The position numbers and the translations under genes are program-made. A stretch of DNA of 64,000 bases, taken from assembly GCA_947501885.1 (NCBI GenBank), contig CANMXN010000001.1:1178001-1242000 (forward strand), written 5' to 3'. The notes beneath the pieces were generated by a model. That model saw only the letters and a list, made by a program, of their open reading frames with translations, was not told the origin of the DNA and made no database searches. The DNA is from an uncultured Sphingorhabdus sp. Lineage in GTDB: Bacteria; Pseudomonadota; Alphaproteobacteria; Sphingomonadales; Sphingomonadaceae. Below, piece after piece: positions 43,316 to 55,785 of this stretch (positions are counted from its first letter, which is position 1; each line of letters opens with the position of its first letter).

Positions 43316-43762
43316 TCAACGACGACTCCAACCAAATAAATGCAACGCATCCCATATTGCTTCAATAGACTCGCGAGCTTGCAAATCTATAATGTCGCCA
43401 TTTTGTGGAACAAGCATTGGTAATGCACTGATCCACTGCCCATCGCCGTATGTCATGCGGCAGTTTATAGCTTCATTATATAATTGCATTTGCTCTATGG
43501 GATATAGATAGCGCCAGCCATTTTCCGACCAAATTGCAATTTGATTGGCTTTTCCTGACCACAGACCCACTGGCCCAGTGCCTATCAACCACATGTCATT
43601 ATCAGCATCAGGCGATAAAGAAGTAGGATCATTTATCACATCTCTTACAGATATATTGAGATAATTATCTATCAGTGTAAGCGCTTCATTATGCGTATAT
43701 TCTTTTTGTGCTTGCCCGACAGCCAATAGTGGCAATTTATGCCGCATCGTTTCCATATTCAT
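43316..43762 (-). CDS. DUF2793 phage/GTA protein
   Basis: The 148-residue protein has the DUF2793 start (RHKLPLLAVGQAQKEYTHNE) and continues MWLIGTGPVGLWSGKANQIA and NGWRYLYPIEQMQLY. DUF2793 occurs at the distal end of sphingomonad and rhodobacter GTA or prophage tail modules and is thought to be a tail-tip or fibre-associated component. AGGA lies 8 nt before the ATG. It is the last gene of the cluster, 25 bp after the gp15-like gene. Confidence 0.85.
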   Translation of the reverse strand: MNMETMRHKLPLLAVGQAQKEYTHNEALTLIDNYLNISVRDVINDPTSLSPDADNDMWLIGTGPVGLWSGKANQIAIWSENGWRYLYPIEQMQLYNEAINCRMTYGDGQWISALPMLVPQNGDIIDLQARESIEAIWDALHLFGWSRR

Positions 43763-47280: not shown

Positions 47281-49628
47281 GATGCTTCCTTAACCTCAAC
47301 CAATGGGATGGATGCTATATCGCTCGCGCCAAAGGTTGTGCCGGCAAGATCCAAATTATCATTGGCAAAACGCACAGGCACATCAAATATATAACCAGCG
47401 CTGATTTCTGCCCCTTGCTCTGGTGCCGTTACAAAAATGATAAAACCATCATCAGAAACATGCCAATCATCATAAGGCACGCCATCAATAGCAACCTGTA
47501 TGCTGTCAATTACGGGTCTAGTAATTCGCCTTTGCTGCATTTCAACATTATCGGCTTCACCATAGTTTTTAATCAGAGCAAAGCGTGTTTGCAGGCCATC
47601 GCCTGTGCCAATAATTTGATCAATAGCGCTAATGTCATCACTTCCCGATGAGCTATAATCATAAGGATCACGAAAACGAAAACCAACCGCACTACCGCGC
47701 CGCGCCCTAAAAAAATTTAATATAACACCCAAATCTTCATCGGACCTGATCGATGGACCGACATCATAATGCATACGAGCATCGGACCAATTGCTATTGC
47801 GAAATTCATGTCCCGACGTGGACGTCACAATATTGGTGGAAAATTCAGGGTTTACCGAAGCCGCCACGCTCAAAGATAAAGGGAAAGCCTCATCGCTAAA
47901 TATCTGCATATCATCATCCTCTATTCTATCATGAACGCACAGGTTAAAATAGGTGAACCCATCGCGCGATACCTGCGGCAATGCCCAGATAAATACATGT
48001 TCTAGACCGCGATCTATCGCACTTTCTGCGGCAAAATTAATATCATACCATTGCGCTTTTTCTTCGGGTAAAAGCACAAAGCCGCTGAAATAATGCTGGT
48101 CTTCCATCGGATAAGATAATCGCTGCGTCATCAAATCGGTGGCGCGCAATGTTGCGCCATGATTGCCCGCTATGACCCAATCATAATCCTCTAGCTGCAA
48201 TATATCGAAAGCAGGAGCGCTCCACCCAACAGGAACATTTGCCCGCAAAGCATCGGGCGCACGCTCATCCAGCACGGTAGGCAAATATACCAAGAGTAAT
48301 AATTCCGATGGCATATTCACGCTATTGCCATAATCGCGCACTGCATCGGCAACGCTTGCGGTTGATGCCGCCAATAATTCACCAGCACGATCTAGCATCG
48401 CCTGCTCATCGGCATTTTTATCGCCGAATATCGTGTCCATCTCTTGCAGCATATCGCCAAAGGCAGCACGCGCACGATCATCATAAAGACAGATGCGGCC
48501 ATCCAAAAATATCCACCACCAAGGCTCGCCCACCTGAAAGCGCAGCGGCAGGCCGCCCACTACCAATATTTCAGCAAAAGCGCGCGCAACATGACGCAAA
48601 TATCCTATCGCGCCATCATGTGCGGGCGATACCAATGATGACGGCGGCGTATAATAAGTTAAGGCTGGATTGCCGTCCAAATCGCGCTGTTTCCAATCAT
48701 TCCAGCAATGCGCATCAAAAATCTCATAGGATAAAGAAAAAATAAGCTCATAATCTGCCGCTTTCGCAAGCTGCACAAAATTTTCATGCCATGCGATACA
48801 CGCATTATTGAGCGTACCCCCATTGAGGCTAACATAATGTTCATCGCCCAGAGCCTCCAGCCGAAAATAATGACTCATACCCACATAATGGTTGATGGTA
48901 CCGCGATAACCAAGCGCGTGAATTTGCCGCAAAATACGCGCTGGCGTTAAATTATACGCATCATCATAACCCGTAGCCATTTGCATCTCATGCTCAGGGA
49001 TCATAATATCACCCGTATCGAGCATCACGCCGCCGCCATCACAGCGAATGGCGCTGATATTGACCTCGCCTTCCTGCGGCGGGTCAATAGTGACATGCTG
49101 ATTATCAAAACTCTCTGGAATGATAGATATAAACATACGATCAATATCACCTGCGTAAACAGGATCAGCCTCGCTTGGGAGCAAGAAACCACCGCTTAAT
49201 TCACTAAAATTCAGAGTGATTTGCGCATCTGTCGGCGAACCATTGGCATAATTCCAAAGCCGAACAAACCAACTTCGCGGATTGCCATTTTGGTCGCGTC
49301 CTTCGATGGTAAGTGTCGGTCCATTTATGGCATTTAACGCCCTTATCCCATCTGATTGCCATCTGAAGGACAGAGTCAAACGCCGATAATCACGGTTCGT
49401 CTCATAAGCCAGCAAAGGATGGTCCCAACGATCCTCGCTCTCCCAAATCAAGCCTGCCAGCGCATCTTGATGGTAAAATACCGCTTTCACTTGCATGGAT
49501 TCTGGTCCTGTACTGACCACCGAAGCCATCATTGGACGGGCAAAATCCACACTCCAAAAGCGCGGGTCAAAACGCTGAACAGGATTGCTCTCTTGTCCCT
49601 CTCGCCTATCTGCTAACCAATAGGGCAT
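47277..49628 (-). CDS. gp12-like distal tail protein fused to a beta/alpha (TIM-barrel-like) domain
   Basis: The protein has 783 residues, whereas RcGTA gp12 has about 210. Residues 578-783 form the DUF2460 domain (FPLSLSVAASVNPEFSTNIV, GVILNFFRARRGSAVGFRFR, VAIDGVPYDDWHV), the distal-tail function. Residues 1-200 are beta-rich (FWSVDFARPMMASVVST). Residues about 220-560 look like a glycosidase-type barrel: NHYVGMSHYFRL, SLSYEIFDAHCWNDWK, RFQVGEPWWWIFLDG, HVFIWALPQ. This resembles the 'non-contractile tail sheath' TIM-barrel proteins of some phages. Whether it is catalytic is unknown; the Glu in GEPWWW is a candidate. Confidence 0.8.
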   Translation of the reverse strand: MPYWLADRREGQESNPVQRFDPRFWSVDFARPMMASVVSTGPESMQVKAVFYHQDALAGLIWESEDRWDHPLLAYETNRDYRRLTLSFRWQSDGIRALNAINGPTLTIEGRDQNGNPRSWFVRLWNYANGSPTDAQITLNFSELSGGFLLPSEADPVYAGDIDRMFISIIPESFDNQHVTIDPPQEGEVNISAIRCDGGGVMLDTGDIMIPEHEMQMATGYDDAYNLTPARILRQIHALGYRGTINHYVGMSHYFRLEALGDEHYVSLNGGTLNNACIAWHENFVQLAKAADYELIFSLSYEIFDAHCWNDWKQRDLDGNPALTYYTPPSSLVSPAHDGAIGYLRHVARAFAEILVVGGLPLRFQVGEPWWWIFLDGRICLYDDRARAAFGDMLQEMDTIFGDKNADEQAMLDRAGELLAASTASVADAVRDYGNSVNMPSELLLLVYLPTVLDERAPDALRANVPVGWSAPAFDILQLEDYDWVIAGNHGATLRATDLMTQRLSYPMEDQHYFSGFVLLPEEKAQWYDINFAAESAIDRGLEHVFIWALPQVSRDGFTYFNLCVHDRIEDDDMQIFSDEAFPLSLSVAASVNPEFSTNIVTSTSGHEFRNSNWSDARMHYDVGPSIRSDEDLGVILNFFRARRGSAVGFRFRDPYDYSSSGSDDISAIDQIIGTGDGLQTRFALIKNYGEADNVEMQQRRITRPVIDSIQVAIDGVPYDDWHVSDDGFIIFVTAPEQGAEISAGYIFDVPVRFANDNLDLAGTTFGASDIASIPLVEVKEAS

Positions 49629-50206
49629 TATCGATCTGCCCTCGCCAAGGCCCCTCTTACCGCGCGCGCCATATGCCGCGATGATCGGTTCAATGCCTCT
49701 GGCGCACTGCCGCGTCCATTATCAGACACGTTAATCGTCATATTGATGGATGGTGCAGCGCCGCTGCGCCCAGCATCAATGGCACCGCTGGTGGTGGGAA
49801 CAAATATTTCTGGTCCATTCTCCCCTACCAAATAAGGCCGCCCCGATGAAACAGGCCCGCCCGTTGATCGCCCTGGAAGCCCCAATGCGGAAGCAGCAAC
49901 ATTACTCAAACCGCCAATTAACCCGCCTGACGAGCCGCCAAATATGCTATCTAACCCCGTGCGCAGTGATGCAGATGCAATATCCGAGAGAACCGATAAG
50001 GCGACGCTGCGCAGATCCTCAAAACCCAGACTGCCACGCCGCAATGCGCCCAATAAACCGCGCTCTAATCCTGCCCCCGCCCGTTCTAGGCTGTTGGCAA
50101 AACCGCCATCCAATTGTGAACGGACATTGCCCAATTCCCGTGCAAACTCCTGCGTATCAGCCCTTACCCTAATGGTTAGGCTCTCAATTTCTTCATCCAT
50201 TATCAT
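49628..50206 (-). CDS. GTA gp11-like tape measure protein (short)
   Basis: The 192-residue protein has SLTIRVRADTQEFARELGNV, then RGLLGALRRGSLGFEDLRSVALS and a Gly-rich segment (IFGGSSGGLIGGLSN), ending GPEIFVPTTSGAIDAG. Phage tape measures set tail length; RcGTA gp11 is similarly short (about 220), so a short tail is expected here. It ends at the same base where the gp12-like gene's start codon ends. Confidence 0.8.
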   Translation of the reverse strand: MIMDEEIESLTIRVRADTQEFARELGNVRSQLDGGFANSLERAGAGLERGLLGALRRGSLGFEDLRSVALSVLSDIASASLRTGLDSIFGGSSGGLIGGLSNVAASALGLPGRSTGGPVSSGRPYLVGENGPEIFVPTTSGAIDAGRSGAAPSINMTINVSDNGRGSAPEALNRSSRHMARAVRGALARADR

Positions 50207-50231
50207 TTCCTTTGAAATGTCATAATATTCA

Positions 50232-51227: not shown

Positions 51228-51313
51228 GATATTTCCTTTCCATAGAGATGTGGATGATGAAGCCAAAATGCATCAGCATCGCCGCATCAAATATTTAATA
51301 TTTGGTTCGATAA

Positions 51314-51718
51314 TTAGGGTTGCGGTTTCACCTGCAAACGAAAGCGGTAATTGATGACTATCGTCCAGCGACCATCTGCATCATGCCCGCTTCTGCTGCG
51401 CAAATATTGACTGTTGATAATATGATGATGCGGCAATTCTCTTGGCAATTTCGTCATCACACTTTCAATTAATGATAGCAGCATTACCGAAGGCGCTTCT
51501 TCTTGCGCAGCGCTGTATAGGGCAATGCTGATACGCACCTCACGTCCTGTGAAACTTTTGCTGCTCCAATCAACGCTCACACTATTTAATAGCTCAATAT
51601 AAGGCGGCGTTGCTTGCGAGGGTCTTTCATCAAAAACACCGTTTATATGGCTCATAATTTCTGCATCATGGCTTAATATTTCTAATATCGCCTGCCGTAA
51701 TTCCCATTCTGCGGTCAT
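51314..51718 (-). CDS. DUF3168 tail terminator-like protein (GTA gp8-like)
   Basis: The 134-residue protein has ELRQAILEILSHDAEIMSHI, NGVFDERPSQATPPYIELL and RSRSGHDADGRWTIVINYRF, the DUF3168 pattern. DUF3168 proteins resemble phage tail terminators that cap the tube on the head side. ATGA overlap with the preceding gene. Confidence 0.85.
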   Translation of the reverse strand: MTAEWELRQAILEILSHDAEIMSHINGVFDERPSQATPPYIELLNSVSVDWSSKSFTGREVRISIALYSAAQEEAPSVMLLSLIESVMTKLPRELPHHHIINSQYLRSRSGHDADGRWTIVINYRFRLQVKPQP

Positions 51719-51984
51719 GGTATAAACCTCCCGGTTAAAAACTGCGGAAAGCGAAGACGATCATTCTGCATCATACGCGCAAAAGTCCTTGGTGCGCGCA
51801 AGGTAACACCGCCATCCATATCTAATTCCAACGCGCCATCAGGGACGGCTACTTGCAGATTTTCAGCAATCTCTGATTGCGCCACTTGCACGCGGCGCAG
51901 GCCCAACATTTGTGCTTTTTGCACTAGATTATCTTCTAAATTACGGTCCATCATATCAGCCTTATACGGCGATAGGGCTGCCAT
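51715..51984 (-). CDS. small GTA protein in the gp7 position
   Basis: The 89-residue product (DRNLEDNLVQKAQMLGLRRV, VAVPDGALELDMDGGVTLRA, RFPQFLTGRFIP) overlaps the connector gene by 34 bp and the DUF3168 gene by 4 nt. By place it corresponds to RcGTA gp7, a head-tail adaptor, but no sequence motif of that family is recognised. The LRAPRTFARMM tail looks like a conserved short motif, so it is probably genuine. It is called by context only. Confidence 0.55.
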   Translation of the reverse strand: MAALSPYKADMMDRNLEDNLVQKAQMLGLRRVQVAQSEIAENLQVAVPDGALELDMDGGVTLRAPRTFARMMQNDRLRFPQFLTGRFIP

Positions 51985-52487
51985 AGTGCCGCAATGGCCG
52001 CAGGAGGCTGCGTGCTTTCGTCTAAATTGCGATTGCTGTATATATGCGCAGCTAATCTAATAATCCCGTTGCGAATGGGTTCGGCAAGGTCTGACCAATT
52101 CTCACTTAGTCCCGCTTGATAAGCAATACGCACACGGCCCGATAAATTATAGCCGCGAAACTTTCCAATGCCTGCCCCCGAAATATCAATGGCATAGCTA
52201 TCAATAGGTAATGCTATCTCTTCACCAGCAACAGATAAAGCCATAATCGTATCGATAGCAATTACGGGCGATTTACATAATTTTTGCCAGCATTTATTGG
52301 CTATAATATCTTCGCTATAATGCGTTAAAAGTGCTGGCGTGCCGATAAAATTCTCACAAATTTCAAGCGATGCGCGCAACAATGATAATAAAGTCGCATC
52401 TTCATTAGAAAGTGAAATACGCAGATAATCTTTAAGAGCATTAAGCGCGCTAGCAGGCACGATGGGAGGCGTGGATTTGAGCATCAC
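51951..52487 (-). CDS. phage head-tail connector protein (GTA gp6-like)
   Basis: The 178-residue protein has ALNALKDYLRISLSNEDATL, LRASLEICENFIGTPALLTH and VRIAYQAGLSENWSDLAEPI, NGIIRLAAHIYSNR, the pattern of the HK97 gp6/phiE125 gp8-like connectors. These form the ring under the portal through which DNA passes. It starts at ATG 52487 or the following ATG; the adaptor-like gene's stop overlaps by 4 nt. Confidence 0.85.
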   Translation of the reverse strand: MMLKSTPPIVPASALNALKDYLRISLSNEDATLLSLLRASLEICENFIGTPALLTHYSEDIIANKCWQKLCKSPVIAIDTIMALSVAGEEIALPIDSYAIDISGAGIGKFRGYNLSGRVRIAYQAGLSENWSDLAEPIRNGIIRLAAHIYSNRNLDESTQPPAAIAALWQPYRRIRLI

Positions 52488-52765
52488 CGTTTCTCCACAC
52501 GAAAGCTAATAGAACGTTGATCACTCTCGCCGCTTTCCAAAATGATATGGTTGCTGACATCATAAGTTTTTCCAATGACACCGCCTTCGATTGACGCAGT
52601 GGATTGACGGCCATTATGACTGGATTCGACAATGGATAATCCTGCGTCATGCTCTGGAGTAACGCTCCATGTGGATGCTTGAATGATATTATGGCCCAAA
52701 TGGCCAGCGCCCCAATCGATCATATAATCGATACGCGCAGATGGGTCTTTCACAAAGACACGCAT
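52484..52765 (-). CDS. fibre-tail adaptor-like protein
   Basis: The 93-residue protein begins VFVKDPSARIDYMIDWGAGH and continues IIQASTWSVTPEHDAGLSIV and IGKTYDVSNHIILESGESDQ, ending in basic EKR. This beta-rich pattern (DPxxxxDYxxDW near the start, W..V, T.SxI.GG..G..Y.V) is that of small phage proteins annotated as fibre-tail adaptors, located beside fibre genes. It follows the fibre and a 47-residue ORF and precedes the connector. Assignment is by resemblance, not certain. Confidence 0.55.
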   Translation of the reverse strand: MRVFVKDPSARIDYMIDWGAGHLGHNIIQASTWSVTPEHDAGLSIVESSHNGRQSTASIEGGVIGKTYDVSNHIILESGESDQRSISFRVEKR

Positions 52766-52808
52766 GTCTTGCTCCCTTTCGTTAAATTGTTGATATATTT
52801 TACCCGCG

Positions 52809-52952
52809 TTACGGTTTTATACGGCTTACATCGGGCTTAACGGGATAATGGTTTTGACGTTTCAGAACCTTTTGGGTCGGAATATTCCTATTAATCGTTT
52901 TATGTTCACTGCCGCTTATCGGTTGCGATGCGATTGCCTCACCAAACATCAT
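52809..52952 (-). CDS. 47-residue hypothetical protein coupled to the fibre gene
   Basis: The ATG at 52952 overlaps the last base of the fibre stop as TAATG, and another ATG follows at once, so re-initiation is plausible. The product starts MMFGEAIASQPISGSEHK and is basic (pattern NRNIPTQKVLKRQNHYP); no membrane helix or family is seen. It fills the gap between the fibre and the adaptor-like gene. It may be an assembly factor or a spurious frame. Confidence 0.4.
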   Translation of the reverse strand: MMFGEAIASQPISGSEHKTINRNIPTQKVLKRQNHYPVKPDVSRIKP

Positions 52953-54379
52953 TATGCCTTACTTAACATATTGAGTTTTTCTGTGATGCGGTGCAGTTCA
53001 CGCCGTTGATAAGCCGCTTCCATCGCGAAGCATTCATCATAACGCAAACCCCATTTCCGCCCTGCTTTTCGGATTAATAAAGGGGCGACATCATTACCAG
53101 CTTGGTCAACACCGTCCTGATATTCATCATCCCATTCATCATAACAGCATAAACCAATTTCAAAGGCATCAATATTATGTTTTTGAAATATTTGATGCAC
53201 ATGCTGCGCAATCAATCCCAAATGCCATCTTTTGCCGCCTTTGCGAAATTTATATCGGGACCATTTAACATCTGCCCAAGCATCCAACCATTCATCAGAT
53301 ATGGCACCAATATTTTTTTTATGCTTCCTATCCGATGTATTTATTGCTCCAGAGCCACTGTAAATAACAGAAAATCTCGCATTGGATTTGCCCAATGCTA
53401 TTTGATTATCACTTCCTGGGGTAACCGTTGCATTATCGATGGATATGACCCTAGTCGGAATAGTATTGCTGCCCACTGTTAATGACTGATCCGCACAGAT
53501 ATGAACCTGCCCACCAACCATCAATATCCCAGAACGGTTCGGTGAGGTTGCTCTATATTTATGACTGGAAAAATAAAAACCATTATCAAAAATATAGGAT
53601 CCCGTAGTAGAAGTTACAGAACCGATATAACAGTCCGAACCTGCATAACCCGCAGAAAAGTGAGCTTGCTTGAAATGATTAGACCGCTCCACATGCAACA
53701 GAGTATCGGGCGATGACTTGCTAATACCGACATGATTTCCGCTGCTATATATATTTTCTAAACCCGCAATATCACCAATATTATGGCTATGATCTCTATC
53801 TGCATAATCGCCAGCATCTTGCTTGGCCAAAAGCTGATCATTCAAGCCATCAATATCGGTATAAGCATGAACATGCGTATTTGGGGCATAATCACCTACA
53901 TCCTGCTTTCCACTCAAAGCCACTGATAAACCAGTAATTTCATCCATATTATGGTCATGCGATGTTAAGGCATAATCACCAACATCTTGTTTATTATCAA
54001 GCGCCGCACCGATACCATTAATATCCGTCACATCATGGCTATGTACAGACACATCATCACCATCTTGCTCTGCAAACCATTGCGCCGATATGGTAAGATT
54101 GATGATCTTAAGACCGTCAGAAAAATCAGTCAGATCATTATTATTCGAACTCGTGATTGCATCGCGTATAAGGCGGTTATCTTCATCAATATAACCTCTG
54201 CCAACTTCCCATTCGCGGGGGGTATTTATGTTTGAAATCGCGTAGTAAAAATATCGGTTTTGAGGAACCGCTTCTGCAAAACTGCGATAACCAGGCGATG
54301 CACCTTCTAAAATAAAAGGCTCAGCGCCATTACTATAAGATGTTTCACGCACCAAGTCGGCAAAAAAAATATCAGTCAT
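52952..54379 (-). CDS. tail/head fibre protein with HxH repeats and S74 autocleaving chaperone
   Basis: The 475-residue protein has an N-terminal attachment domain (DLVRETSYSNGAEPFILEGA, PGYRSFAEAVPQNRYFYYAI, about residues 8-60), four HxH repeats of 28 residues (H113, H141, H169, H197), a beta region (230-345), and a C-terminal intramolecular chaperone of the peptidase S74 type: S349-D-R-K-H-K354 followed by HLGLIAQHVHQIF. In S74 fibres the Ser/Lys dyad (Lys five residues after Ser) cleaves the trimeric chaperone off after folding. Its place beside the capsid gene, far from the tail-tip genes, is unusual. Confidence 0.85.
   Translation of the reverse strand: MTDIFFADLVRETSYSNGAEPFILEGASPGYRSFAEAVPQNRYFYYAISNINTPREWEVGRGYIDEDNRLIRDAITSSNNNDLTDFSDGLKIINLTISAQWFAEQDGDDVSVHSHDVTDINGIGAALDNKQDVGDYALTSHDHNMDEITGLSVALSGKQDVGDYAPNTHVHAYTDIDGLNDQLLAKQDAGDYADRDHSHNIGDIAGLENIYSSGNHVGISKSSPDTLLHVERSNHFKQAHFSAGYAGSDCYIGSVTSTTGSYIFDNGFYFSSHKYRATSPNRSGILMVGGQVHICADQSLTVGSNTIPTRVISIDNATVTPGSDNQIALGKSNARFSVIYSGSGAINTSDRKHKKNIGAISDEWLDAWADVKWSRYKFRKGGKRWHLGLIAQHVHQIFQKHNIDAFEIGLCCYDEWDDEYQDGVDQAGNDVAPLLIRKAGRKWGLRYDECFAMEAAYQRRELHRITEKLNMLSKA
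53759..54043 (-). repeat. four 28-residue HxH repeats in the fibre
   Basis: HSHDVTDI, HDHNMDEITGL, HVHAYTDIDGL and HSHNIGDIAGL begin at residues 113, 141, 169 and 197, exactly 28 apart, each followed by a LxxKQDxGDYA segment. In phage fibre trimers the HxH motif of three chains octahedrally binds an iron ion. These sites would form four metal rings along the shaft. Confidence 0.85.
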
Positions 54380-54399
54380 ATCTGTCTCTTATCATGGTT

Positions 54400-54434
54400 A
54401 GCCCGCACCAGCAGGGGGATAACTGGTACGGGCT
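54400..54434 (-). promoter_or_regulatory. stable hairpin between capsid and fibre genes
   Basis: The minus-strand RNA can form a 12-bp stem (AGCCCGTACCAG / CTGGTGCGGGCT, one U-G pair) with an 11-nt loop, but no T-run follows, so it is not a typical terminator. It lies 57 bp after the capsid stop and 20 bp before the fibre start. It could protect the 3' end of capsid mRNA or dampen downstream expression. Confidence 0.5.
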
Positions 54435-54490
54435 TATTTGCGCCAACTCTCAGGAGTTCAATCAAAGTCAGCGCAAATATAGGGATGGAA

Positions 54491-55717
54491 TTAGTTTGCT
54501 GAGAATTTTAGCAATTTAATCGCCTCGCTGTTCATCACCTGTCCGCCAATGCGCTTGGTCGCATAAAAATGCACAAAGGGCTTATTGGTGAATGGGTCGC
54601 GCAATATTTGCGTAGCTTTGCGTTCGGCAATCAAATAGCCTGCTCTAAAATTACCAAAAGCAATAGAGAGGCTATCCGCGCTCACATCAGGCATATCTTG
54701 CGCTTCGACCACAGGATAACCCAGCAATGTATCAGGCTGACCAGAGGCCAAAGAGGGTTGCCACAAAAATGCGCCATCGCTGGTTTTAAATTTGCGGATA
54801 TGCGCCAATGTGCTGCTATTCATAACAAAGGCTGCGCCCTGACGATAAGATGATTTCAGCGAATGCACCAAGTCAATGATTTGATCTTCTGGATTATCGC
54901 TACCAAAATCACCATCGCTACCGCTGGCGATATATTGCAGCGTGCCAAAATTACGATCAGCATCTTCTGCATCGCTAATGGCGCTATTCAAAAAGCCTTT
55001 GGGTTGATTGACGCCGCTACCCATTACAAAGGCGCTGCCTTCGGCGCGGGCAAATTCCCGAGCAATCTCATCAGCAAGCCAGCTTTGCACATCAAAGGCC
55101 GCGTCATCAAGCATCGCCTGCGATGCCGCAGGATTGGCATATAGCTCGCCCGTTGGCGGTGCGATTTCGTTAAAGTTCGGTGTATCGGTTTCTGGTCGGC
55201 TTTGCACTTCGCTCACCCAACCAGAAGGCGTGCCGCCATCAGTTACCAATTTACGGTATCCAGCAGTTCCCGTTTGCACCACAGTGGCGATCGAACGAAT
55301 GGGTGAAATATCATTCAATGTTTTGCCAATCATCGCATCAATTTGCTGTGGTACGGCAAAACCGCCATCCGATGCACTTGCGCCCGAAAAGCTTTTCATC
55401 TCATTCTCTTGGCCTCGGCGTAAATAACCATCCACAAAAGCACGGACATTGGCATCATTTTTCAGACCTTTTTCACCGCTCTCTAGCACAGGACGCGCCG
55501 CTGCACTTGAAACTTGCGCCATTTGCCCTTTTAGGATTTTTACATCAGCCTTGGTAGCATCTACATCGCTACGCAGAGCTTTTATTTCGGTTTTTTGAGT
55601 TTCTTGCTCATCAGCTATTACTGCCATATCTTCTGCAGCAATCACCGCATCAAATGATGCTTCCATAGCATCTGCTTTCACTTCTAATCCTGTATCTTGG
55701 GAAATATCCATTATCAT
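54491..55717 (-). CDS. phage major capsid protein, HK97 family (GTA gp5-like)
   Basis: The start at 55717 (or 55711, 55729) is uncertain; AAAGG sits just upstream. About 408 residues: an N-terminal delta/scaffold coiled coil (KTEIKALRSDVDATKADVKI, about residues 40-75) that the prohead protease should remove, then ENEMKSFSGASASDGGFAVP, IMIGKTLNDISPIRSIATVV-like and the HK97 fold (GSGVNQPKGFLN, LLGYPVVEAQDMPDVS, QILRDPFTNKPFVHFYATKR). It forms the small GTA head. Confidence 0.9.
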   Translation of the reverse strand: MIMDISQDTGLEVKADAMEASFDAVIAAEDMAVIADEQETQKTEIKALRSDVDATKADVKILKGQMAQVSSAAARPVLESGEKGLKNDANVRAFVDGYLRRGQENEMKSFSGASASDGGFAVPQQIDAMIGKTLNDISPIRSIATVVQTGTAGYRKLVTDGGTPSGWVSEVQSRPETDTPNFNEIAPPTGELYANPAASQAMLDDAAFDVQSWLADEIAREFARAEGSAFVMGSGVNQPKGFLNSAISDAEDADRNFGTLQYIASGSDGDFGSDNPEDQIIDLVHSLKSSYRQGAAFVMNSSTLAHIRKFKTSDGAFLWQPSLASGQPDTLLGYPVVEAQDMPDVSADSLSIAFGNFRAGYLIAERKATQILRDPFTNKPFVHFYATKRIGGQVMNSEAIKLLKFSAN

Positions 55718-55785
55718 TATACCTTTCATTTACGTCTTAAGTTAAGGAGCTACTTCTCCTATATTTGAGGATGATTTGGCGACTT

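Follow-up and report, generated by a model that had tools for sequence, protein, structure and literature searches.

Gene transfer agents (GTAs) are domesticated, phage-derived particles that carry DNA from one bacterial cell to another. A GTA cluster in an uncultured Sphingorhabdus sp. raises the question of why a fibre gene should lie between the genes for the major capsid protein and the neck. The stretch analysed, referred to here as the window, is 64,000 nucleotides long (contig CANMXN010000001.1, positions 1,178,001 to 1,242,000), and its minus strand carries a cluster resembling that of the Rhodobacter capsulatus GTA (RcGTA), which begins with a putative small-terminase gene (59602) and ends with g15 (43788). 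The ordered head-tail genes, together with matches to the RcGTA capsid and adaptor proteins, place it among RcGTA-like clusters by gene order. The fibre gene and a small adaptor gene form a cassette between g5 and g6, and it is on balance probable that they encode an accessory, exchangeable receptor-binding GTA fibre mounted at the neck. Relatives keep, lack or swap the unit at the same spot, and it would therefore probably be an extra, exchangeable grappling hook affecting recipient choice.

The fibre, the adaptor and the intervening reading frame

An earlier note on this DNA described a fibre of 475 residues, a coupled open reading frame (ORF) of 47 and an adaptor-like gene of 93 between the capsid gene and g6, in the same orientation and closely spaced or overlapping. 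This arrangement was confirmed by the following coordinates and by matches to RcGTA Rcc01687 and Rcc01688.

54491..55729, minus strand: major capsid gene g5, the upstream landmark (Pfam PF05065, E 2e-92; RcGTA Rcc01687, PDB 6tb9, E 3.1e-85)
52952..54379, minus strand: fibre, 475 residues, with anchor-like N-terminal domain, tail repeats and S74 chaperone (Pfam matches)
54050..54379, minus strand: conserved fibre N-terminal domain of about 110 residues, predicted virion anchor (alignment of 23 sequences)
52955..53335, minus strand: fibre C-terminal 127 residues, S74 chaperone with Ser349-Lys354 motif (Pfam S74 match and SDxxxK motif)
52809..52952, minus strand: ORF47, 47 residues, its start overlapping the fibre stop (no family)
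52484..52765, minus strand: 93-residue fibre adaptor of the Gp77 family, a single beta-sandwich domain (PF23148, E 9.5e-22)
51951..52487, minus strand: g6, head-tail (neck) adaptor and proposed docking ring (RcGTA Rcc01688, 6tba, E 3.5e-6; phrog_442, phrog_40)

The start of g6 overlaps the end of the adaptor gene (52487 against 52484). A passage of PMC7296036 describes its RcGTA counterpart, Rcc01688, as a dodecamer that sits on the portal and the capsid.

The 93-residue protein is a member of PF23148, 'fiber-tail adaptor gp77', with 77.8 bits against a curated cut-off of 27 and coverage of model positions 1–84 of 84. The profile search that the earlier note had proposed for the adaptor led, besides this family, to the adaptor of podophage GP4 (8jou_D, E 6.9e-12); the single sequence alone reached only E 0.98. 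Two single chains, the adaptor and the fibre N-terminal domain, were modelled with AlphaFold2. The adaptor model had a mean predicted local distance difference test (pLDDT) score of 92 and its best PDB fold was 8jou_B (Foldseek E 1.8e-5, template-modelling scores 0.80/0.83), so that on the predicted model the protein has the GP4 adaptor fold. The ratio of nonsynonymous to synonymous substitution (dN/dS) among the four closest genomes was about 0.06–0.22, indicating purifying selection on the adaptor.

The fibre matched Peptidase_S74 (E 3.6e-13, residues 349–401) and phage tail repeats (E 5.5e-7). Its SDxxxK motif (Ser349, Lys354), which we take to be the self-cleavage dyad of the S74 chaperone, is present in the window and in 14/14 relatives examined, which had been selected by their S74 match. 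Together with the domain match, the Ser-Lys pair assigns the C-terminus to the auto-cleaving fibre chaperones, and the S74 part is expected to cleave itself off. The N-terminal domain (model mean pLDDT 81) gave no match in the PDB by profile or by fold. The first search covered 141 loci, among them the window and the genus and adaptor-picked loci, and is a different set from the 141 capsid-picked loci considered below; this domain was recognised in 33 of them, and all 33 also have the adaptor. The frames of fibre and adaptor are intact in all five genus genomes with the cassette, and that the two genes are more than a chance arrangement is borne out by recurrence in 4/44 other genus genomes and by purifying selection on the adaptor. 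A scan of 56 insert ORFs, which took in the other insert types as well, gave eight matches to S74 and one to three each to laminin-G, SASA esterase and pectate-lyase-like families, while many ORFs match nothing; these S74, lectin-like, esterase and pectate-lyase-like matches are as expected for receptor binding.

ORF47 is weakly supported as a real gene. An ORF of 41–61 residues occupies its position in several relatives, conservation is poor (dN/dS about 0.40–0.78 for the five pairs allowing an estimate) and comparison with protein families gave no match. In several families a protein of 122–127 residues, alike by eye and with no protein family found for it, lies in the same place between fibre and adaptor (L160, L163, L167, L174, L177, L181, L187 and others).

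Recurrence, replacement and exchange at the g5–g6 junction

The genus sample comprised 45 genomes including that of the window, with a matching capsid in 21. The cassette is present in five genus clusters, namely the window and those of 4/44 other genomes, and the slot is empty (139–147 bp) in four. In ten clusters another fibre-like insert fills this slot, the interval measuring 1.67–1.98 kb.

L044-L047, L050, L053-L057, same slot: loci with the alternative insert (Mtd_N-like proteins, one collagen-like fibre)

These inserts contain a protein of 112–126 residues and a short ORF, accompanied in 9/10 by a 150-residue protein whose start resembles Mtd_N (the one tested gave Pfam E 2.7e-9) and a protein of about 203 residues; Mtd is a phage tropism determinant. 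In genome G028 a 416-residue collagen-like fibre stands in place of the Mtd_N-like set. G018 has a capsid match without a recognised cluster, and the 21st capsid match is G062.

The window holds a further candidate adhesin gene at the far end of the cluster.

43316..43762, minus strand: DUF2793 gene directly after g15, of the family of the RcGTA tail fibre (PF10983, E 2e-15; 8gtc_S, E 1.4e-6)

The matched chain 8gtc_S carries the label 'Ribonuclease III', and 8gtc is presumably the R4C phage baseplate. A DUF2793 gene follows g15 in 13/17 genus loci, the remaining four stretches ending before or just after g15, and it is seen with S74-type, Mtd-type and empty junctions of the genus alike. The family is named as that of the RcGTA tail fibre in a passage of PMC10883770. 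At the level of gene content, the cassette is extra to the tail-fibre gene and not a replacement for it.

PF23148 was found in 81/296 genomes of the order as against 6/337 in a class-wide sample, the window's own genome included; four of these six matches exceed the cut-off, and in G561 (L340) the adaptor lies beside g6 as in the window. A capsid match was obtained in 192/296 genomes of the order, with at least 150 places listed, five of them in the window's genus; of the 145 non-genus places, 141 were counted (G118, G189, G221 and G251 left out). These 141 loci comprise 37 with insert plus adaptor (an interval above 700 bp and the adaptor gene preceding g6), 85 compact, two with adaptor only, seven with another insert and 10 unresolved. 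Intervals measure 23–367 bp in compact loci, 342 and 558 bp in the adaptor-only loci and at least 870 bp where there is an insert, and each interval listed for the 35 insert-plus-adaptor loci among the first 100 has an ORF of at least 225 residues. The first 100 loci were hand-picked for variety, and 41 (40 fetched later and L334) were added. Insert plus adaptor occurs in 35/93 resolved hand-picked loci, 2/38 added loci and 37/131 together; the hand-picked share is too high, since the added loci gave 2/38, and the odds given to a neck-mounted fibre did not rest on this share. About 42 further genomes with a capsid match belong mostly to other families, of which two (f5, f8) often have the adaptor, and the share in the order may therefore be higher. 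The 20 loci L189–L208 were chosen by adaptor position and excluded from the tally.

The insert type occurs in 19/54 genera, of which g27, g41 and g59 are mixed (added loci sorted by eye). Cultured carriers of the cassette include Blastomonas natatoria and Blastomonas sp. AAP53 (L242/L245). A third insert type, without adaptor, consists of large proteins with an FGFxxxLAxxQRR-like N-terminal pattern by eye (L111:3404-5719, L154:3317-4885), and inserts without adaptor are also seen in L365, L371, L380 and L384. At 26 loci outside the order (L307–L332, about 1.5 kb on each side) the adaptor was found in none and g6 in 21, 29–876 bp after the capsid gene; a viral_contigs scan with the window adaptor returned no relative.

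The junction comparison proposed in the earlier note, which asked whether the same cassette occupies this place in all sphingomonad GTAs, thus gave a negative answer, as 85/131 resolved loci are compact. Its proposal of a GTA host-range module stands in that fibre and adaptor are extra to the tail-fibre gene and their swapping pattern fits a role in recipient range; with 37/131 loci carrying insert plus adaptor, the module is not peculiar to this GTA. Its description of the cassette as 'inserted' is unproven, because the trees, on which adaptor presence or absence changes 11–12 times (quick capsid, g6 and g9 trees), do not tell gain from loss.

Within the genus, the junction lies in a mosaic block that extends into the neck and tail completion genes.

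51240..54500, minus strand: block strongly different from relative G022 (DNA identity in 90-base steps)
51715..51984, minus strand: g7, stopper position, within the exchanged block (position only, no Pfam family; identity drop)
51314..51718, minus strand: g8, tail completion/terminator-like, within the exchanged block (PF11367, E 8.5e-15; identity drop)

DNA identity between the window and G022 is 44–86%, mostly 45–70%, from about 54.5 to 51.24 kb in 90-base steps; beyond the block it is 91–98% in the compared start of g9 and 94% by blastn over 48,388–50,212. By gene, identity is high for capsid (92%), g9 (97%), g11 (97%) and g12 (98%) and low for fibre (40%), adaptor (68%), g6 (59%), g7 (40%) and g8 (59%); portal (74%), g10 (64%) and g10.5 (35%) differ as well, so exchange is not confined to the fibre–g8 block. 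A chimeric assembly of G022 is possible because the genome is fragmented (86% complete), with the contig starting inside the capsid gene, and from this pair it cannot be told which lineage changed. The comparison with G035 (5 contigs) gave a similar low block (fibre 41%, adaptor 68%, g6 59%, g7 43%, g8 60%) and high values for capsid (86%), g9 (90%) and g11 (92%), with protease (61%), g14 (54%) and g15 (55%) low too. G022 and G035 share 79% in the fibre, 96% in the adaptor, 80% in g6, 65% in g7 and 85% in g8. Within the window fibre, the first 110 residues are 53–56% identical to those of G022, G035 and G012 as against 45% for G005, and for the C-terminal part G005 is the nearest, at 56% over residues 304–471.

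The upstream edge of the junction also carries a predicted RNA structure.

54400..54479, minus strand: pair of strong RNA hairpins predicted in the capsid–fibre gap (fold prediction)

The folded stretch of 110 nucleotides begins at the final base of the capsid stop codon; its energy is -45.0 kcal/mol, with a z-score of -7.46 relative to 60 dinucleotide shuffles. Post-capsid hairpins with z below -2 are found in 49/56 compact clusters, 30/57 with adaptor and 8/10 with an Mtd-like insert, intervals under 60 bp being left out of the count. They perhaps hold capsid expression above that of the downstream genes.

Probable placement on the particle and alternative explanations

The adaptor is closely tied to the neck genes. 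g6 directly follows it, within 100 bp, in 60/62 loci, the exceptions being a decayed cluster and a contig end; g6 is next in each of three further adaptor loci among those added, and a tblastn match to g6 accompanies 29 of the 30 best adaptor matches (all but L078). Three prophage-like loci have a fusion of the PF23148 domain with a connector protein, of PF05135 in L333 and of PF07030/Mu gp36 in L336 and L339, and in L333 ORFs that are fibre-like by eye lie between the capsid gene and the fusion, in the layout of the window. The fusions and the tight g6 link, both read from gene sequence, point to the neck rather than to penton spikes, and from these neighbours and fusions we infer that the adaptor physically joins the fibre to the virion.

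Some adaptor genes adjoin g6 in intervals too short to hold a fibre gene (342–558 bp; L106, L202, L279, L280, L282, L382), and would be either orphan adaptors or partners of a fibre encoded elsewhere. In Sphingorhabdus sp. Alg239-R122 (L089/L231) the adaptor start runs on into the later part of g6 and g8–g10 were not found, which marks a decayed cluster.

In the mechanism that we propose, the fibre would fold as a trimer helped by its S74 end, after which the S74 part would cleave itself off at Ser349. The fibre N-terminal domain would plug into the 93-residue Gp77-type adaptor, which would dock where head and tail meet, on the ring of g6 (the Rcc01688 orthologue). In addition to its DUF2793 tail fibre, the particle would then have a further adhesin, and this neck adhesin may contact recipient surface polysaccharide ahead of tail binding. 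The g5–g6 slot would be an exchange site, with the adhesin kept, lacking or replaced by lineage, sometimes along with g6–g8. Extending this to sphingomonad GTAs at large is a tentative step: these may have a dedicated g5–g6 plug-in site at which neck adhesins are exchanged to tune which relatives get DNA, at least three unrelated adhesin sets sharing the site (fibres with a Gp77 adaptor, the Mtd_N-like set, and the third type of large proteins without adaptor).

Several observations weigh against a neck position. The place of the fibre on the sphingomonad GTA particle is deduced from gene sequences. Membership of PF23148 does not by itself mean neck, because in GP4 the adaptor works on the tail of a podophage and the homologue in mycobacteriophage Bernal13 lies among minor tail genes; matches also in GDPD- or lipase-domain proteins of one genome (G489; L212, L215) mark the family as a general beta-sandwich. 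PF23148 is matched weakly by the L336 fusion (E 7.4e-8) and by that of L339 (E 1.6e-5), which falls short of the curated cut-off, and in G162 no recognised GTA genes lie near the adaptor gene. For the fibre N-terminal domain no solved relative was found, nor any detectable likeness to the GP4 fibre. The g6 trees follow cassette state no better than those of capsid or g9 (12, 11 and 12 changes respectively; FastTree, no shuffle control, adaptor-picked loci included), and a special cassette–g6 linkage was therefore rejected as giving no signal in this test.

Fibres are usually tail-tip parts, and the fibre and adaptor might be encoded near the neck genes and yet be located at the tail tip or baseplate, as is usual in siphophages. 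The adaptor homologues in mycobacteriophages such as Bernal13 would fit this placement, but the DUF2793 tail-fibre gene already present after g15, the fusions to head-tail connectors and the position next to g6 make it unlikely. The fibre gene also follows the capsid gene, and RcGTA head spikes bind capsule according to a passage of PMC10218006, so that a head spike on the capsid vertices, a functional counterpart of Rcc01079/Rcc01080, could be envisaged, as the earlier note had done. We consider this quite improbable: RcGTA spikes are described in part of PMC7296036 as using a pentameric jellyroll base and a fibre with a leucine-glycine N-terminus, which the window fibre lacks, and the best solved relative of the adaptor is a tail-fibre adaptor (8jou), in a comparison that did not include the spike base Rcc01079 itself. 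Nothing found links the cassette to penton spikes, and this part of the earlier note was abandoned.

That the cassette is a leftover of an ancestral prophage, unused by the particle, would agree with the commonness of compact clusters and with the decay of the region in Sphingorhabdus sp. Alg239-R122, but is very improbable given the intact fibre and adaptor frames in five genus genomes, purifying selection on the adaptor among four, and an SDxxxK motif kept in 15/15 S74 fibres looked at. A neck-docked accessory adhesin attached through a Gp77 adaptor is the reading that best accounts for family, place, fusions and swapping together.

Comparison with known systems

In the literature searched, including PMC6821227, PMC9836097 and PMC9765227, the passages seen (rather than full texts or supplements) hold no description of a g5–g6 fibre module in GTAs; Viswanathan et al. 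2017 (Sphingomonadales 'ancient prophage') may list such genes. Variable inserted genes between g6 and g10 are noted for phage counterparts in a passage of PMC11409702. GTAs have been described with a conserved head-tail cluster and, in R. capsulatus, with receptor-binding proteins elsewhere, passages of PMC13420450 and PMC6209664 putting the genes of both head spikes and tail fibres outside the main cluster; here the module is inside it. With a receptor-binding module in the cluster that varies among close relatives, the recipient range of a GTA would be able to evolve and could be tested, and selection on who receives DNA would be suggested. The cassette also suggests that siphophage-like particles may have a class of fibres mounted at the neck.

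The closest structural parallel is the fibre I/adaptor gp77 of podophage GP4 (8jou), which shares adaptor family and fold with the window's 93-residue protein. The GP4 adaptor sits on a short podophage tail, whereas the window adaptor gene adjoins a neck gene of a siphophage-like GTA, and the window fibre N-terminus has no detectable similarity to any solved chain. In podophage BcepMigl and Agrobacterium phage Atu_ph08, the adaptor homologue has neighbours with tail fibre, minor tail or tail fibre assembly annotations. S74 phage fibres and endosialidases of the K1F type share the C-terminal Ser-Lys chaperone, and a comparison of the fibre with phage proteins, as the earlier note had advised, succeeded to this extent, with 25–39% identity over 40–62% of the fibre (20 matches listed). 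They differ in N-terminal anchor and virion context, and none of the phage records among the matches listed reaches 80% coverage of the fibre.

The RcGTA head spikes Rcc01079/Rcc01080 are likewise extra receptor-binding GTA proteins besides the tail fibre. They are encoded away from the main cluster (in a passage of PMC6209664) and attached to pentons, and no sequence or fold link to the cassette was found; homology received no support, and the window fibre N-terminus lacks the Ile-Ala-Leu-Gly repeat given for the spike fibre in part of PMC7296036. The RcGTA tail fibre Rcc00171 (DUF2793) is also a GTA receptor-binding fibre, and its family is represented in the window by the separate gene after g15.

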